This document shows positions 22,235-29,478 of a stretch of 64,000 nt of DNA, in pieces. Every line of letters begins with the position of its first letter. Position 1 is the first letter of the stretch. This DNA is from Calditrichales bacterium MX18-03 (GTDB taxonomy: Bacteria; Bacillota; Clostridia; Lutisporales; Lutisporaceae): assembly GCA_021083345.1 (NCBI GenBank), contig JAJGRE010000002.1:496001-560000 (forward strand), read 5' to 3'. The notes below the pieces were generated by a model. It saw nothing but the letters and a program-made list of their open reading frames with translations, made no database searches and was not told the DNA's origin. A program made the position numbers and the translations under genes.

Positions 22235-22723
22235 TTATTTGTTCATTGCTTCCAGCCTCAGGAGGAACTGCTTAATGTCCAAGTGCTCTCCCAGATATCC
22301 CGTCAGTCCGCCGTCTTTGCCGATGACCCGGTGGCAGGGTACGAATATGGGCAGCGGATTGCGCCGGTTGGCCTGTCCTACAGCCCTGCAGGCTCTCGGA
22401 CGACCGATAGATGCTGCCAGTTCGGCATAACTCCGGGTCTCCCCGTAAGGTATTTCCTGCAGCGCTTGCCATACGCTCTTATAAAACACAGTCCCTTCAT
22501 AGGATAAAGCAACAGAGAATTGCTTTCTTTTGCCGCAAAAATACTCATCAAGCTCTTTCACCGCCTGTCGGCATATGCCGGGGTCCCGCATCACCGGGCC
22601 CTTCAGCCTCTGGTATTCCTCCCAGTGCTCCTCCAGCAATATCACGCTTTTGATCCCGTCATTCCCGGCCAGAAGATGTACCCGTCCAAAAGGTGTTTCG
22701 TAATGATCATATACAATACTCAT
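22235..22723 (-). CDS. ogt: Methylated-DNA-protein cysteine methyltransferase
   Basis: The 162-residue protein has the suicide Cys130 in IFVPCHRVIG, with the Asn hinge and RAVGQANRRNP helix that bind O6-methylguanine. The ATG at 22723 begins the normal N-terminal fold. The start overlaps the end of adaA by 17 nt. Together the two genes form a split Ada system: AdaA senses methylphosphotriesters and activates ogt, and Ogt repairs bases. Confidence 0.93.
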   Translation of the reverse strand: MSIVYDHYETPFGRVHLLAGNDGIKSVILLEEHWEEYQRLKGPVMRDPGICRQAVKELDEYFCGKRKQFSVALSYEGTVFYKSVWQALQEIPYGETRSYAELAASIGRPRACRAVGQANRRNPLPIFVPCHRVIGKDGGLTGYLGEHLDIKQFLLRLEAMNK

Positions 22724-23303
22724 TGATACTACCCCTCTGCATCTCACTGTAATTTCGCCGGTATTCCCTGGGAGAGGCCCCTGTCTCGGCACGGAATGCG
22801 GCATAAAAGCTCGAAAGGCTTGAAAAGCCCACCAGATAACAGATATCTGTATTGCTCAGCCTGTTTTCTTTCAGGTGCATTCCTGCTTTTTCGATCCGTA
22901 GGCGCTGCAAAAACGCTTTGGGGGTCATGCCCTTAAACTTCTTGAAAGTCCGCTGCAAGTGGAACGGGCTGACCCCTACCCGCAGGGGAAGTGCCTCCAA
23001 TATGTCAAAAGTGCCGTATTCTCCCGTCAGAATCAATTCTACCGCTTCACCGATCTCCAGCACTGCATCGGCGGGCAAATGGAGCAGCTCCGGCCTGCAG
23101 CGTTTGCAGGACCTGAAACCGGCAGCCTCAGCAGCTCCGGGACTGTCGAAATAAACGACATTTCCCCTGTTGGGCAGCTTGGACCGGCATGAAGGCCGGC
23201 AGAAAATCCCGGTGGTCCTGACACCGTAGTAAAATACCCCGTCATAGGATGCATCGTTATTTGCAACCGCTTCCCACCTGGCTGCATCCGTCAAGCTCAT
23301 CAT
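22707..23303 (-). CDS. adaA: AdaA-type methylphosphotriester sensor and AraC activator
   Basis: This protein of about 198 residues begins with the Ada zinc domain. Cys35, Cys39, Cys66 and Cys69 (FCRPSCR and SCKRCR) are the Zn/methyl-acceptor ligands. It ends with an AraC HTH (about 100-190; VGVSPFHLQRTFKKFKG and NTDICYLVGFSSLSSFYAAFR). The start is the tandem ATG at 23303/23300 rather than an upstream TTG. It is the adaptive-response activator of the overlapping ogt gene. Confidence 0.9.
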   Translation of the reverse strand: MMSLTDAARWEAVANNDASYDGVFYYGVRTTGIFCRPSCRSKLPNRGNVVYFDSPGAAEAAGFRSCKRCRPELLHLPADAVLEIGEAVELILTGEYGTFDILEALPLRVGVSPFHLQRTFKKFKGMTPKAFLQRLRIEKAGMHLKENRLSNTDICYLVGFSSLSSFYAAFRAETGASPREYRRNYSEMQRGSINEYCI

Positions 23304-23402
23304 GGCACAACGCCCCTTTTCCTGTTGTTCCGCTACCTCGCAGCTTTTTTTCAATTATAGCATGCCGGCGGCTATAAAGCGTCCTGATTCTTGCGCAGTA
23401 AT

Positions 23403-24083
23403 TTATAATGCAAAATCTATGGCTGCTCTGGCATGCAGCGCCAGCGTGTCCAGCAGCGGCAGCCGGGAATGCTGCTGCTCTAATAGCAGCGGTAATTCCG
23501 TACAACCCAGGATGACGCCCTCCACATCATAGCAGCCGATGATATCCAGCATTCTGCTCCGGGTCTCATCTGACTGCTTATGGATGACGAGCTCTTCAAA
23601 AATGATGGCGTTGATTTCATCCTGGTGTTCTTCCGTGGGTGTCACCACCTGGATGCCGAATTCTCTAAAGCCGTCCTGGTAAAAACTTCCTTGCATCGTA
23701 TATTTGATGCCGGTCAGAAGCACTTTTTTCAGCTTCAGCCGGGCCGCTCTTTTTGCTGTTGTCTCGACAATGCTGATCATTGGAAGCTGAACCTTGTCTT
23801 TCACCTGATGAAAAACCGAATGGGGCGAATTGGCGGCCATGATGGCAAAATCTGCGCCAGCCCTTTCCAAGGATTGGATGCCGCTCACAATGTACGCAAT
23901 ATATTCGTCCGTTCTGTGTTGGTCTTCCAGATCGGTAAAATATTGAAAATCCAGGCTCTTTATGATGATTTCAGGATAGTAATAATCCTTTTTTGCCGCA
24001 TAATAAAGATCAGTAATGGTACGGTAGTACTGAATGGTAGAAGCCAGGCTGATTCCGCCGAGAATGCCGATTGTCTTTTTCAT
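23403..24083 (-). CDS. Aspartate/glutamate racemase-family protein
   Basis: The 226-residue Asp/Glu/hydantoin racemase fold starts MKKTIGILGGIS. The second catalytic Cys is present (ILGCTELPLLL). The first is replaced: where active racemases have a Cys before the NT/H motif, this reads AANSPHS. Members with this substitution (YgeA-like) show narrow or weak activity. It lies 15 nt downstream of cheX. Function uncertain; amino-acid racemisation is the best guess. Confidence 0.8.
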   Translation of the reverse strand: MKKTIGILGGISLASTIQYYRTITDLYYAAKKDYYYPEIIIKSLDFQYFTDLEDQHRTDEYIAYIVSGIQSLERAGADFAIMAANSPHSVFHQVKDKVQLPMISIVETTAKRAARLKLKKVLLTGIKYTMQGSFYQDGFREFGIQVVTPTEEHQDEINAIIFEELVIHKQSDETRSRMLDIIGCYDVEGVILGCTELPLLLEQQHSRLPLLDTLALHARAAIDFAL

Positions 24084-24098
24084 ATCCGCTGCCTCCCC

Positions 24099-24560
24099 TT
24101 AAAATGATGTTAATACCACATTGATTTCAAAAGACATCCCGCTGTGGAAAATCATCGGTATTGCAATGATGGCCGCCTTTGATATGGAAATGTTCATTCC
24201 GCTTCCCGTCAATACCGTCGGCGGTGAGATGCCCATGTTGGTGTTTCTCTTCGAAAAAATTGTCAGTGCATTACCGGAAATGATATTGGCCAGCTCTGCA
24301 ACCGCGCTTTTTGACATTTCATCCAGCTTCTCAACCGGCATTCCCATCATCAGGGATGCAATATATAAGGCGGACTGCTCCTTCATGGTAAAAATGATTT
24401 GACCCTTCAAGCCGCCCACGACCCCGAATACGATTGCCATGTTGTCGCTCTCAAAACCGGATTTTTTCTGATAGGCCGTCCCTCTCTTTATTTTTACATT
24501 GGCCATTTTGCTCAACACCTCTGAAGAGGCTTCTATAAACGGATTAATGCAGTCGATCAT
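24099..24560 (-). CDS. cheX: CheX-type CheY-P phosphatase
   Basis: The 153-residue protein of the CheC/CheX/FliY phosphatase fold has the active-site helix with Glu and Asn in SAVAELANIISGNA. It has one such helix, as CheX has. No flagellar or chemotaxis operon is adjacent. It might dephosphorylate a stand-alone receiver, including those encoded at 28.5-34.8 kb, but that is only proximity. Confidence 0.82.
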   Translation of the reverse strand: MIDCINPFIEASSEVLSKMANVKIKRGTAYQKKSGFESDNMAIVFGVVGGLKGQIIFTMKEQSALYIASLMMGMPVEKLDEMSKSAVAELANIISGNALTIFSKRNTNMGISPPTVLTGSGMNISISKAAIIAIPMIFHSGMSFEINVVLTSF

Positions 24561-24674
24561 TTTTGCTCACCTTTCTCTTCTGTTATCCTGATGAATCCTT
24601 AGCAGCCGCTTCACGAAGAATTGGCCTACAAATTCATCTTAGCAGAAAGTAACGGCCAATGGAAGATAATATCT

Positions 24675-24703
24675 GTAACCAAACAGCGGTCTGTACATAT
24701 GAT
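24675..24703 (+). promoter_or_regulatory. Sigma-K-like sporulation promoter
   Basis: GTAACC (ACC at 24678-24680), 15 nt, then CATATGAT (24696-24703) matches the sigma-K form ACC-N15-CATANNNT. The same arrangement with identical spacing precedes the gene at 25632. The leader to the RBS is about 55 nt. Confidence 0.5.
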
Positions 24704-24774
24704 GGTACTGAGAAAGGAGAACAAGCAGAAAGACTGCTTTGCGCTTCTTCATCATAATATTGGAGGTATAAGGT

Positions 24775-24993
24775 ATGGGTAACGGATTATTCGGCTTCGG
24801 CGGGGGATGCAATCCCGGCACATCGGTATCACCGTTAGGCGGCTTGTTTGAATGCAACGGCTTCCTTCTCCTGCTTCTGTTGTTCATCTTGTTGGCTGCG
24901 GGTCCGTCCTGGGGTATTGATAACAACTACTTCTTTATCATTATCCTCGCTGTCATCGGCTTCGGCGGCTTCGGCAGGACCTTCGGTCTGTAA
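24775..24993 (+). CDS. Gly-rich small membrane protein, probable sporulation protein
   Basis: The 72-residue protein has a Gly/Phe-rich head with two Cys, a strongly hydrophobic helix (FLLLLLLFILLAAG, about 29-43) and a second at about 51-64, ending in GFGGFGRTFGL. RBS GGAGGT lies 6 nt before the ATG. The sigma-K-like promoter upstream suggests mother-cell expression late in sporulation, where similar Gly-rich small proteins are known in coats. Compare the 42-residue protein at 166-294. Function unknown. Confidence 0.7.
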   Translation: MGNGLFGFGGGCNPGTSVSPLGGLFECNGFLLLLLLFILLAAGPSWGIDNNYFFIIILAVIGFGGFGRTFGL

Positions 24994-25007
24994 AACATAT
25001 GGAAAAC

Positions 25008-25033
25008 AGCCCGCTCCTATCCAGGAGCGGGCT
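25008..25033. terminator. Bidirectional terminator between convergent genes
   Basis: AGCCCGCTCC pairs with GGAGCGGGCT across a 6-nt loop. On the minus strand it is followed by GTTTTCC. It serves the VOC gene (stop 25054) and, less clearly, the gene at 24775. Confidence 0.7.
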
Positions 25034-25053
25034 GCTGATTATCAGGTCCATTG

Positions 25054-25422
25054 CTACGATTGTACATAGGAACAGGTCTCCAGCCTGTTGCCTTCGCTGT
25101 CGATAAACCAGAACCATTTTACATCATAAAGCACCTCTATTTCGCCAACCACGACGCCTTTTTCCTTTAAGTACTGATAGGCTTCTTCAATATTTTCAGC
25201 ATAAAGGTTAAAGGGCGCATAAGTCATCGGTTGAAAACCCGTCTCGCCTCTATGCTGCACTAAAGTGACGGGCGACCCGCAAACCTCTATGGCGGCAAAT
25301 CCGCCTTCACTGTTATGCCAAAGCAGCGAGCATTCCAGTACGGACATATACCATTCAATGGCCCTAGGCAAGTTTGCTACCCAAAGAAAATAGGAATCAA
25401 CACTTTTAAACGGTACCGGCAT
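25054..25422 (-). CDS. VOC-superfamily (glyoxalase-like) protein
   Basis: The 122-residue single VOC domain starts MPVPFKSVDSYFLWVANL, then AIEWYMSVLEC and a C-terminal KWFWFIDSEGNRLETC. The final Glu occupies the metal-ligand position of glyoxalase/dioxygenase folds. The ATG at 25422 has GGAGG 7 nt upstream; an in-frame start about 30 codons earlier is rejected. The substrate is unknown. Such proteins may be isomerases, lyases or antibiotic-binding proteins. Confidence 0.75.
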   Translation of the reverse strand: MPVPFKSVDSYFLWVANLPRAIEWYMSVLECSLLWHNSEGGFAAIEVCGSPVTLVQHRGETGFQPMTYAPFNLYAENIEEAYQYLKEKGVVVGEIEVLYDVKWFWFIDSEGNRLETCSYVQS

Positions 25423-25574
25423 TCCATTCCCTCCCTTCCGATTAACAAGCAAGTATCCTCCTGCTTGATTTTCAGGTCCTACTACACTATATTCAGAACC
25501 AAAATTTCTGCTCATGGATTTTCTGCTGCGACTGCTTTTTTAGATACATCGGGGCTTATTCAAAGAAAAATGTA

Positions 25575-25600
25575 ACCAAGCCGGAGCTTGTTCATAGAAT
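25575..25600 (+). promoter_or_regulatory. Sigma-K-like sporulation promoter (second copy)
   Basis: ACC (25575-25577), 15 nt, CATAGAAT (25593-25600). GTAACCAA and the spacing equal those of the promoter at 24675, although the spacers differ. Confidence 0.5.
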
Positions 25601-25631
25601 GTAGTGAGGATAAGACAAGGAGGTGAAAAAT

Positions 25632-25934
25632 ATGAAAAAAGCATTTGGCTGCTACCCGGAAGGCGCTCCGGAAAGCAATGACGCTGTTGCGGCTTGCGGC
25701 GAAAAGTACCCAACAAGACCCTGCCCGCAAAAGCCGGGAACAGTCCTTAGGATTTTTATTCCGGCAGGTGCCGTCATCAATCTGCTGAACCTTATCGAAA
25801 TCAGCTCTCCCAGCGGCATATGCATCATTATCAGAATCCCGCTGCTTGGCGGGTTATGCGGTGACTCTGCCTGGGATTCCATCATGAATTCCATCCGTGC
25901 AGCAGGTGGCAAGATTGAATTCACAAATGAATAG
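25632..25934 (+). CDS. Small Cys-containing protein of unknown function
   Basis: The 100-residue protein has an N-terminal polar half with four Cys (FGCYPEG, AACGEKY, PCPQ region), then VLRIFIPAGAVINLLNLIEISSPSGICIIIRI and LLGGLCGDSAWDSIMNSI. It is moderately hydrophobic without a clear TM helix. RBS AAGGAGGTG is 7 nt from the ATG at 25632. With the sigma-K-like promoter it is a candidate spore-associated protein. Not recognised. Confidence 0.6.
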   Translation: MKKAFGCYPEGAPESNDAVAACGEKYPTRPCPQKPGTVLRIFIPAGAVINLLNLIEISSPSGICIIIRIPLLGGLCGDSAWDSIMNSIRAAGGKIEFTNE

Positions 25935-25945
25935 AAGACAAATAA

Positions 25946-25982
25946 GGCTGCCGGCAAATTTTATTTGCCGGCAGCCCTTTCC
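25946..25982. terminator. Shared terminator of convergent genes
   Basis: GGCTGCCGGCAAA pairs with TTTGCCGGCAGCC across a 5-nt loop. The plus strand continues CTTTCCCTTT and the minus strand TTATTTGTC, so it may serve both the gene at 25632 and DUF2935. Confidence 0.75.
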
Positions 25983-25990
25983 CTTTACAG

Positions 25991-26923
25991 TTACTTTAGC
26001 GACATATCATAAAAGGATCTCAGCATCCTCAGATAGTGGTTCGCTTCTCTTAGAACATGATCACTCAGGAGGGGCGGGATGATGGAACTGATTTCGCATT
26101 CCAATATGCCTGCTGTTCCCTCTTCCTTGAATTCCTTCAGGCAGCTCACCTCAACAAGACTTTCCTTTGTCACATCCGGAAGCATGCCGGGGCTCTGCTG
26201 CAGCTTTTTCGTCTTTTCAAGAAGTGCATCCAGTTCCTTAGCAAAGGTATCCGCTTTTTGAATGAGTTCTTCCTCCGAGGGATCCAAATAGCCCCTGATA
26301 AAGGTTGCATGCTCATACATGATTTCATTCCAAAAGCGCTCCTGATGACTGATGTCCCTTACACTGTCGATGTCGTCCCGTTTTTCAAGCATATCCAGCA
26401 TGTGCAGATAATGCTCCGTCTCTTCAGCCACATGCTTGATCATGGAGGGGTAGGTGTAGCTGAAGGCCTTGCAGTCTATGGCATCCCTGTAAAGTGTCGA
26501 AAGGAACTCCAATGCCTCCTGTGTTAGAGCATGAGCCCGTTTGTTCAGGCCGGCAACGCGGGGAAGCAGCTGGTCAGGCAGGCTATTTTTTCTTTCCGGC
26601 TTCAGGGCAAGCTCCTGCTTTGTCAATTTCATGTCGATGGGTATTCCTGTCAAGGCTTGCGTCTTCTTCTCCGCCGGTAAGGTCATTCCGGTAACCAGTT
26701 CCTCAGAAGCATAGACTTCTGGGCTGACGTTACCATCTGTCAGATCCAGGGCTTCCTCCAACAGCTTCTCATAGTCGTTTTTCATGGCAATCAGTCGGTA
26801 TGCCTCTCTCGTAGCCTTAGGCGGCAGAGAAACTGCCGCAAAGATGGCATGCTCCTTGGCAATTCTTGTGAAGAACAGGTTCAGCTCTAGTGAGAGCTTG
26901 ATAAAATCCCGGTCCGATAACAT
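25991..26923 (-). CDS. DUF2935-family protein (ferritin-like fold)
   Basis: The 310-residue protein has two tandem DUF2935 repeats. The first starts near LELNLFFTRIAKEHAIF and the second near RFWNEIMYEHATFIRGYLDP. Each carries the EH pairs and a later HYL (TEHYLHML and EANHYLRML) expected of a four-helix metal site. The ATG at 26923 follows GGGG and is preferred to one 12 nt upstream. Common in spore-forming Clostridia; function undetermined. Confidence 0.85.
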   Translation of the reverse strand: MLSDRDFIKLSLELNLFFTRIAKEHAIFAAVSLPPKATREAYRLIAMKNDYEKLLEEALDLTDGNVSPEVYASEELVTGMTLPAEKKTQALTGIPIDMKLTKQELALKPERKNSLPDQLLPRVAGLNKRAHALTQEALEFLSTLYRDAIDCKAFSYTYPSMIKHVAEETEHYLHMLDMLEKRDDIDSVRDISHQERFWNEIMYEHATFIRGYLDPSEEELIQKADTFAKELDALLEKTKKLQQSPGMLPDVTKESLVEVSCLKEFKEEGTAGILECEISSIIPPLLSDHVLREANHYLRMLRSFYDMSLK

Positions 26924-27020
26924 GATATCCCCCATTTCTATATCATTATGGCAGGTATGAAACCAAATTTATACCATTATATTTCCACCTCAACTTTTTT
27001 GTGACTAAGGAACAAAAGTA

Positions 27021-27066
27021 AAAAAAGAGACATCGGCAATAGCACTCAGCAACCGCCTATGTCTCT
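27021..27066 (-). terminator. Intrinsic terminator of the CBO0543-like gene
   Basis: The minus strand has AGAGACATaGGC pairing with GCCGATGTCTCT, followed by TTTTTTTAC. The left arm includes the stop codon of the gene ending at 27057. Confidence 0.8.
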
Positions 27067-27497
27067 TGAGGACTCAACCATTCAGCTATCCACATCAGAT
27101 TGGTAAACCCGCCCAGGTTCAAGAATAATGCCTTGAGAATGTTCCATCGGATATGCCGGAACCCTCCCAGCCGGATCATCAGAATTTCCAGCACAAGCAG
27201 AAATACTGCACAGCCGGCAATAAAAGCAGCTCTTCCCCAATGGCTTCTCATGGGACGTAAACGGTCAAAGATCATACCGCCCGGAAAAAAGCTGAGCCAA
27301 TAGGGCAGCGGCAATCCTGACACCATCCTGCCGGTATGGCTATATTGAAAAGCATCCAGTTGAATCAATGGCGTATCAATAACAAAAACAACAATCATCC
27401 CCGCCACACCCATTTTCCAGTGTTTTTTCCATTGCCGGACAGGCACTGCCAGCAGTGCAGCTGTCCAAGCTGCAGCGGCAAAGAGGCACCAAGCCAT
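27057..27497 (-). CDS. Four-TM membrane protein (CBO0543-like)
   Basis: The 146-residue protein has about four TM helices (2-18, 30-46, 62-76, 88-108) and the segment DTPLIQLDAFQY, ending NLMWIAEWLS. This form is like the CBO0543 family of clostridial membrane proteins of unknown role. The upstream RBS is weak. The neighbouring genes give no functional hint. Confidence 0.6.
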   Translation of the reverse strand: MAWCLFAAAAWTAALLAVPVRQWKKHWKMGVAGMIVVFVIDTPLIQLDAFQYSHTGRMVSGLPLPYWLSFFPGGMIFDRLRPMRSHWGRAAFIAGCAVFLLVLEILMIRLGGFRHIRWNILKALFLNLGGFTNLMWIAEWLSPQET

Positions 27498-27570
27498 ATT
27501 GCGTCAGCCCGCTTTCTCTTTAAATTTACATACCAGACTATTTATAGAATTCCCAAACCAGTCTGGATTA

Positions 27571-27612
27571 TTGATTTGAATCACATACGCAATGGCTCAT
27601 ATTGGCTATAAT
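27571..27612 (+). promoter_or_regulatory. Crp/Fnr-type site and promoter of the hemerythrin gene
   Basis: TTGATTTGAATCAC (27571-27584) matches the Fnr/HcpR palindrome TTGAT-N4-ATCAA at nine of ten positions. A consensus TATAAT (27607-27612) lies downstream and no -35 box is seen. With a start near 27619 the site centres at -41.5, the classical class II activator position. Confidence 0.6.
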
Positions 27613-27657
27613 CAAATCAAAAGAGTAGAACAAAACCACATGAGGAGGTAGAAATCT

Positions 27658-28437
27658 GTGGAAAATTATATGAATAAAAGTGTTAAGAGTGTTATCTCAA
27701 CGTTTCCCGAAGTCGGGGCCCTATTGGTACGGTTCGGGATCGGGTGCGTGACCTGCAGCATGGGAACATGCCTTTTCAAGGATATTATTGATATACACCA
27801 CCTTCCCAAACAGGAAGAAACTGAATTGATGACACAGGTCAAAAGGATCATTTTCCCTGATAAAGAGACGTCATCACCTTTGCACTTCGACTTCACCCAA
27901 AACACTCCGGTCAAACCCGTTAGATACTCGATGCCGATCAGGATGCTGGTTGACGAGCACAGCTTGATCAAAGCCTTTCTGTCCGGCATACCCAAACTTA
28001 CAGAGGCAGTAGAACGCCCAGGGGCTATTGATGAATCCATCCTTCTGAAAAGTGTGGACTTTATAAGAAGCTATGCGGACCGGTTCCATCATGCCAAAGA
28101 GGAGGATATCCTGTTCAAATATGCCGAAGAGGACTCCGACATCATAAAAGCCATGCAGGAGGAGCACCAGACGGCAAGAAGCTATGTCAAAGCCATTCTG
28201 GCAGGCTTGGAGGAACAGGACGGCACTTTGATTGCCCAAAACCTGGAACGTTACAACCGGCTTCTGCAGCAGCATATCAAAAGAGAGGATGAGATCCTCT
28301 ATCCTTGGTTTGAGCGAAAGCTATCCGACAAGCAGATCGGTGAGATATCCCTGCAGTTTGAAGACATTGACCGTTCGGTGGGGAAAGGCTTTACCTACAA
28401 GTGGCTGACCTTCATTCATCAATTGGATAATCTTTAA
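27658..28437 (+). CDS. Hemerythrin-domain protein with ScdA_N/DUF1858-like head
   Basis: The 259-residue cytoplasmic protein has an N-terminal small domain with CVTCSMGTC (three Cys, about 30-38), similar to DUF1858/ScdA_N. A C-terminal HHE four-helix domain (about 92-230) carries His/Glu ligands in DEHSLIKAF, RFHHAKEEDILF, EEHQTARSYV and QQHIKREDEILYPWFE. Di-iron binding follows from the family. Such proteins bind O2 or NO or help repair Fe-S centres (RIC/YtfE). It starts at GTG 27658, 8 nt after GGAGGT. The Fnr-type site fits a nitrosative or redox stress role. Confidence 0.85.
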   Translation: MENYMNKSVKSVISTFPEVGALLVRFGIGCVTCSMGTCLFKDIIDIHHLPKQEETELMTQVKRIIFPDKETSSPLHFDFTQNTPVKPVRYSMPIRMLVDEHSLIKAFLSGIPKLTEAVERPGAIDESILLKSVDFIRSYADRFHHAKEEDILFKYAEEDSDIIKAMQEEHQTARSYVKAILAGLEEQDGTLIAQNLERYNRLLQQHIKREDEILYPWFERKLSDKQIGEISLQFEDIDRSVGKGFTYKWLTFIHQLDNL

Positions 28438-28455
28438 ATAAGTTCGGATAAAGAG

Positions 28456-28490
28456 AGCCAGGTCCGGTCAATACCGTTCCTGGCTTTTAT
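28456..28490 (+). terminator. Terminator of the hemerythrin gene
   Basis: AGCCAGG and CCTGGCT enclose an internal CGGT/ACCG helix, followed by TTTTATGC. It lies about 20 nt after the stop. Confidence 0.8.
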
Positions 28491-28491
28491 G

Positions 28492-29478
28492 CTATATTTC
28501 AATCACTGTAACTTGATTACGGCCTGATTCCTTGGAACGGTACAGTGCCATATCGGCTTTTCCAACAAAATCCTCCATGACATCGGTAGCTTTCGGAACA
28601 ATGGTTGCCGCTCCCAGACTGACAGTCACCACTGGTGCCGTCTTTGAGAAACCATGGTCAATTGCCAAAGCCTCCACCTGGAAACGGATGGCCTCTCCGA
28701 TGACTGCTGCACCTTGGCTGTCGGTATCCGGAAGCACGATAACAAATTCTTCTCCTCCATAGCGTGCGGCAAAATCCATCGGACGCTTCAATGCAGCGGT
28801 CATGGCTTTTGCAGCCCTTACCAGGCATTCATCCCCTTGAAGATGTCCATAATGATCGTTGTAGGCCTTAAAGTTGTCAATATCCAGCATAATGACTGAA
28901 ATGGGCTTCATTTCCCTTGCCGCTTCCTTCCAGCTGCTTTCCATATACCGGTCGAAGCTGCGACGGTTGGGTATGCCTGTCAAGGCATCCTGTACAGAGA
29001 GGCTTTCCAGCTTGACATTCTCCACTTTTAGCGCGGTCAGCTCCCTGATTTTTTGCTCCAGTTCCTCTTTTTGCTTTTGCAGCTGTATCCTTTGCCTGTA
29101 CAGGTCCAAAAACACCCTTACCTTGCTTTGTAGGATGATCGGTTCTATGGGCTTGAACAGATAGTCAACAGCACCCAGTTCATAACCCTTGAAAATGTGC
29201 CATTGCTCCTTATTGATAGCCGTAACGAATATGATGGGGACATGGCGTGTCCTCTCGCTTCCCCTCATCAGCTCAGCTGTCTCGAAGCCATCCATTTCCG
29301 GCATCTGGACATCCATCAGCACCAGTGCAAAATCGTGATCCAGCATCAACCCTAATGCATCGTTCCCTGAAAAAGCCTTGAAGATATTGCAGTCCATTTT
29401 TTCCAGAAGCCCCTCCAGGACCAGCAGATTTTCCGGTCTGTCATCAACAATCAATATGTTGATAAAACTATTTGACAT
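28492..29478 (-). CDS. Response regulator with diguanylate cyclase output (REC-GGDEF)
   Basis: The 328-residue protein has a receiver domain with acceptor Asp in LVLMDVQMPEMDG, a coiled linker (about 125-155) and a GGDEF domain with the active motif RYGGEEF. The RxxD inhibitory site (RPMD) lies five residues before it, so c-di-GMP synthesis with product inhibition is predicted. There is no EAL domain. It is the last gene of the hybrid kinase-cheR-cheB operon and overlaps cheB by 11 nt. It is the likely output of that kinase. Confidence 0.9.
   Translation of the reverse strand: MSNSFINILIVDDRPENLLVLEGLLEKMDCNIFKAFSGNDALGLMLDHDFALVLMDVQMPEMDGFETAELMRGSERTRHVPIIFVTAINKEQWHIFKGYELGAVDYLFKPIEPIILQSKVRVFLDLYRQRIQLQKQKEELEQKIRELTALKVENVKLESLSVQDALTGIPNRRSFDRYMESSWKEAAREMKPISVIMLDIDNFKAYNDHYGHLQGDECLVRAAKAMTAALKRPMDFAARYGGEEFVIVLPDTDSQGAAVIGEAIRFQVEALAIDHGFSKTAPVVTVSLGAATIVPKATDVMEDFVGKADMALYRSKESGRNQVTVIEI

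Follow-up and report, generated by a model that had tools for sequence, protein, structure and literature searches.

Two small protein genes in a Lutisporaceae genome are preceded by what appears to be one and the same promoter, which raises the question of what this promoter is and what kind of product it serves. The genes, here called gene 1 and gene 2, lie in a 64,000-nucleotide (nt) stretch of contig JAJGRE010000002.1 from Calditrichales bacterium MX18-03 (positions 496,001 to 560,000), which is the window throughout. In our assessment both are likely to be single-gene units of the late mother-cell programme directed by sigma-K, with products that most likely reside in the outer layers of the spore. 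This type of promoter is already known; neither protein belongs to a family named in Pfam or NCBIfam. Judged by sequence comparison, these are probably two new protein families of the sigma-K regulon and components of the spore surface.

An identical promoter string before two genes

The initial annotation had placed the same string, with a 13-nt spacer, before both 24775 and 25632. GTAACCAA-N13-CATANNATG indeed has exactly two matches in the window, at 24675-24704 and 25572-25601, both on the + strand, and its maximum count over 100 dinucleotide shuffles was 0. The two 13-nt spacers differ, and each site precedes a GGAGGT ribosome-binding site followed by a small open reading frame (ORF). The features are, in window coordinates:

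24675 to 24682, + strand: -35 region GTAACCAA of gene 1, with the sigma-K 'AC' inside (sequence and pattern scan; consensus from the published excerpts cited below)
24696 to 24704, + strand: -10 element CATATGATG of gene 1 (sequence and pattern scan)
24762 to 24767, + strand: ribosome-binding site GGAGGT of gene 1 (sequence reading)
24775 to 24993, + strand: gene 1, encoding a 72-amino-acid (aa) Gly/Leu-rich hydrophobic protein with 2 Cys, family 1 (ORF list, structure model)
25572 to 25579, + strand: -35 region GTAACCAA of gene 2 (sequence and pattern scan)
25593 to 25601, + strand: -10 element CATAGAATG of gene 2 (sequence and pattern scan)
25619 to 25624, + strand: ribosome-binding site GGAGGT of gene 2 (sequence reading)
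25632 to 25934, + strand: gene 2, encoding a 100-aa protein with 5 Cys, family 2 (ORF list, homologue search, alignment)
25946 to 25976, + strand: inverted repeat GGCTGCCGGCAAA / TTTGCCGGCAGCC, then a T/C-rich stretch, 3' of gene 2 (sequence reading)

Both products are small, contain Cys and are Gly-rich or hydrophobic, as had been described. Because a glyoxalase-like gene on the minus strand (25054-25515) separates them, gene 1 and gene 2 are separate transcription units. An alternative GTG start at 25623 would extend the gene 2 product to 103 aa, and the inverted repeat with its T/C-rich stretch is likely a candidate terminator.

Across the genome (4,686,761 bases) the exact string occurs at three sites and the reversed-pattern control at none, so that the genome-wide search for the string before small genes, which the initial annotation had proposed, yielded a third site heading an array of small genes. 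This copy (C8:115727-115756, minus strand) is followed by a 52-aa hydrophobic protein (counted from the start that has a ribosome-binding site; 72 aa in the longest ORF), and the array behind it (C8:112000-116000) holds three gene 1 paralogues of 69, 69 and 68 aa together with an 83-aa protein rich in Cys and Gly, which an upstream start would lengthen to 89 aa. Just past the array, the variant site GTAACCAA-N13-AATACAATG stands before a 69-aa Cys-containing protein. The view that the shared string is not a simple duplication holds for gene 1 and gene 2, which show no relationship to each other and have different spacers. It does not extend to sites 1 and 3, which may share descent because the third genomic copy precedes gene 1 paralogues.

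Assignment to sigma-K

According to the excerpts of PMC517825 and PMC3789822 that we draw on, sigma-K and sigma-E promoters have a common -10 element and differ in the -35 element (AC for sigma-K, ATA for sigma-E), a distinction set by an Arg in SigK in place of a Gln in SigE. Both window sites read TAACC, with C at the discriminating position and not ATA, and their -10, CATANNAT, follows 16 nt after the AC, which is the published sigma-K type and spacing. The genome encodes a SigK above the family cut-off with the residues GISRSY and a SigE with GISQSY; the position of the -35 contact residue was assigned by alignment to the description in those excerpts.

A genome scan allowing two mismatches to the string gave no excess over the control (14 sites in each), and therefore a position-specific relaxed pattern, GTMACMNWN13MATANNATR, was used. 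It has 12 genome sites against 0 in the control, and 9 of these are at promoter positions: before both window genes, at C8:115727 and C8:114204, before genes for proteins of 75, 99 and 119 aa, and before a glycosyltransferase and a multicopper oxidase. A looser scan with AACC...CATANNNTR remained at background level (54 sites, 68 in the control). The multicopper oxidase matches spore coat protein A (CotA) with an expectation value (E) of 1.3e-182, and its site, GTAACCGA-N13-CATATTATG, has one mismatch to the string; an ORF from an upstream start codon would cross this site, while the CotA match begins after it. In Bacillus subtilis, cotA is listed in the sigma-K regulon in the excerpted text of PMC517825.

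A site of the same type was also found before yabG, a known sigma-K gene whose control is shared with sigma-E in Clostridioides difficile according to the excerpt of PMC10681294. It is present in all 14 distinct yabG upstream regions, including that of the genome studied here (L064-L078); a search limited to 150 nt finds it at 13 of 15 loci. The gap between AC and CATA is 17 nt in each of the 14 distinct yabG promoters, as against 16 in the exact-string sites. Published consensus, SigK/SigE residues, the CotA and yabG sites and the conservation described below thus all support the sigma-K-type layout that had been proposed for the two genes.

Among relatives, sigK is split in two by an insert of about 1.6 kb in G010 (C31:27700-30600) and G006 (C134:700-3700). 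The insert holds one ORF of 451-454 aa that resembles a large serine recombinase by eye, and would thus be a minimal skin-like element. Genomes G004, G009 and G013 also have sigK in pieces.

Conservation of the promoter in two protein families

The promoter is retained upstream of homologous genes in both protein families. Among 391 genomes of the same class, 17 have homologues of gene 2, representing 15 of 222 genera, the genome studied here included. The footprint was assessed in 19 distinct evaluable copies from 15 genomes, in the 150 nt ahead of the best start codon. All 19 carry the loose form AC-N15..18-[CA]ATANNNT and 17 carry the strict form AC-N15..18-CATANNATR, counts that are not independent because copies of one genome and genomes of one taxonomic family are related. 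As background we used 45 regions upstream of longer ORFs (at least 120 aa, both strands, overlapping loci kept) in the same loci, which contain 16 loose and 1 strict matches; over 300 rounds of dinucleotide shuffling the mean was 2.6 for the loose form (maximum 7) and 0.23 for the strict form (maximum 3). Because the loose form is this frequent in the background, it is the strict form that carries the footprint evidence. Two of the 21 family 2 loci were left out (L108, with the homologue close to the end of the stretch, and L111, with no start codon under the rule applied and an internal stop), and L113, L115 and L116 overlap L100 and L101, so that shared gene copies were counted once. A further match to the strict form at 1183-1208 of the window (+ strand), outside any ORF of at least 150 aa, is probably a chance occurrence.

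In an alignment of 18 family 2 sequences, C31 and C64 of the gene 2 protein are invariant, and the common core reads like CPQLPGTxLRIFIPAGAVINLLNLIEVTSPSGICLIIRLPLLGG. One homologue (L080) lies directly before yqfC and yqfD. Scanning of 18 members returned no NCBIfam match at E up to 0.1 and one chance Pfam match; searching solved structures by profile turned up no credible relative, the best family 2 match having an E of 0.0019 over 24 positions of an exonuclease chain. AlphaFold models of the window proteins, built without alignments, have mean predicted local distance difference test (pLDDT) scores of 49.9 and 62.1, too weak for a fold search. We recognised no paper dealing with these two proteins in a search of the open-licence literature.

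In family 1, a strict site stands upstream of the match in all 12 loci found by protein search (8 source assemblies), the nearest at 70-926 nt, and the three farthest sites (L047, L048, L049) head same-strand clusters of small genes. Over the 92,906 bases of family 1 loci, 27 strict sites share the strand of the match, as against 10 on the opposite one. Of 42 family 1 gene copies in the wider set of retrieved loci, 20 have a strict site within 250 nt; this set was partly chosen by motif, and many of its copies without a near site are later genes of a cluster. Lutispora thermophila (L049) has an arrangement similar to the array behind the third genomic copy, each site being one base off the pattern. 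The gene 1 protein is modelled at low confidence as two long helices and has no Pfam or NCBIfam match above cut-off.

The string in related genomes

Of 21 other genomes in the window's taxonomic family, 12 contain the exact string, as does 1 of 19 from the same class. Fifteen of the 20 sites in these genomes are followed by an ORF for a Gly-, Tyr-, Leu- or Cys-rich small protein, and many of these proteins are relatives of gene 1. Among the remainder, two sites (L016, L030) are followed by only short ORF pieces resembling the L015 protein, one (L011) by a protein of about 285 aa and one (L023) by a gene recognised by eye as MarR-regulator-like, and one (L029) has nothing clear downstream.

In a larger class sample of 391 genomes, including the present one, the string has 36 sites in 26 genomes and the reversed-pattern control has none. 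Outside the window's taxonomic family there are 15 such sites, of which 10 precede the protein of about 285 aa, all in family f7 (in L088 the frame is only 85 aa long). A small protein rich in Met, His and Pro follows the site at L084, and the site at L087 is followed by a 106-aa protein similar by eye to one in G002; the other three (L085, L086, L097) are at non-promoter places. A further family of small proteins (ETVTIFTTSGG...GFTGV...CFVRL) lies behind same-type sites at L017, L026, L048, L051, L052 and L087. It occurs in the window's taxonomic family and in one genome of another family (G161), and two members that were scanned have no Pfam match above cut-off.

An extended element was seen in 38 non-redundant sites (of 48) from the window's taxonomic family, collected with GT[AC]AC[AC]...[CA]ATANNAT[AG]. 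In these sites the AA following GTMACM is 95-97% conserved, TGTA ahead of CATA 63-79%, and a stretch like AA-TGGGAA after the -10 66-87%. In the distant family 2 promoters the conserved parts are the AC, the -10 and a gap of 16 or 17 between them, besides a less strongly kept TG 12-13 nt past the C of CATA.

Proposed role and alternative explanations

Under the reading we prefer, RNA polymerase with SigK would, after engulfment of the forespore, recognise the -35 'AC' within GTAACCAA and the -10 CATANNATG, 16 nt apart. Each gene would be transcribed singly and its mRNA translated into a small protein in the mother cell, and both products would most likely be built into the outer layers of the spore. 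Gene 1 would supply a Gly- and Cys-containing hydrophobic protein of two helices from a locally amplified family, and gene 2 a Cys-containing, perhaps beta-rich protein from a family scattered over the class. That both genes depend on sigma-K, are expressed late and have products in the coat or some other outer layer is what the promoter and its conservation suggest. Of the two roles that the initial annotation had offered, coat components are plausible for both products, and no support was found for a role in the cortex.

Several observations weigh against this reading. No sporulation gene was recognised among the ORFs and family scans of the window neighbourhood 22500-28500, and the exact string is absent from 9 of the 21 other genomes of the taxonomic family. 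Family 2 is patchy, with no homologue in any of those 21, and its loose promoter form is frequent in the background, as noted. The two-mismatch scan showed no excess, and among the 12 relaxed sites two are internal to unrelated genes and a third is ambiguous. These two intragenic sites, together with the three non-promoter sites of the class-wide search, would also fit a chance string or a dispersed repeat without function. We rejected that explanation as highly improbable, given 36 sites against no reversed-pattern match in 391 genomes, spacers that are not conserved, and a promoter that is kept in homologues defined by their proteins. The -10 element is in addition common to sigma-E and sigma-K, and in the excerpt of PMC10681294 the C. 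difficile yabG gene, with a similar element, is under both factors even though its -35 lacks ATA. Transcription mainly by sigma-E, at an earlier mother-cell stage and with or without later help from sigma-K, is accordingly conceivable; we consider it unlikely, since the discriminating position of the -35 here is a C, within AC and not ATA, and the element stands before a homologue of CotA, whose gene belongs to sigma-K in B. subtilis.

The extended conservation raises a different question, namely whether the octamer, or at least some of it, serves a second late regulator working alongside a mother-cell sigma factor. The strong AA past the GTMACM and the A-TGGGAA-like stretch in the 38 sites would suit such a regulator, but the octamer could also be accounted for by a larger -35 recognised by SigK itself, the distant family 2 promoters strictly keep only the AC, the gap and the -10, and the 38 sites were gathered with a pattern that fixes part of the octamer, many of them being related by descent. 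We therefore judge a second regulator to be improbable. A bolder proposal, which we put forward tentatively and with more doubt than belief, is that the window's taxonomic family has an enlarged late mother-cell promoter composed of the octamer GTMACMAA and the start-site A-TGGGAA stretch, of which the two window genes would be read-outs, and that family 2 is a widespread, previously unnamed sigma-K family. Such a promoter would imply a SigK that makes wider contacts or else a further late regulator, in a clade that is expected to lack GerE, the regulator of Bacillus.

Comparison with known systems

Coat proteins vary widely from one spore former to another, and homology is a poor guide to them. 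With a promoter signature that is kept within and across genera, candidates can be found by computation. In the present case the signature singles out two families without annotation, of which one is present in 15 of the 222 sampled genera of the class, and it offers a simple and inexpensive way to probe the late mother-cell regulon beyond Bacillus and C. difficile.

YjcZ is a Gly-rich and hydrophobic protein. It belongs to the sigma-K regulon of B. subtilis and is a very small late mother-cell protein, as is proposed for the window proteins. Gene 1 differs in that its weak model shows two long helices and in that, with 10 relatives, it has no match to YjcZ-like models of tiny membrane proteins in Pfam or NCBIfam at E up to 1. 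CotA and YabG, known coat-related products of sigma-K promoters, share with the window genes the same or a similar promoter element, upstream in this genome or in its relatives, but are enzymes without sequence relation to the two small proteins. The sigma-K promoters of B. subtilis and C. difficile are alike to those of the window in the -35 AC, the -10 CATANNAT, the range of spacing and a cognate SigK with Arg, whereas the window's taxonomic family has in addition an enlarged -35, GTMACMAA, and a conserved stretch at the start site.
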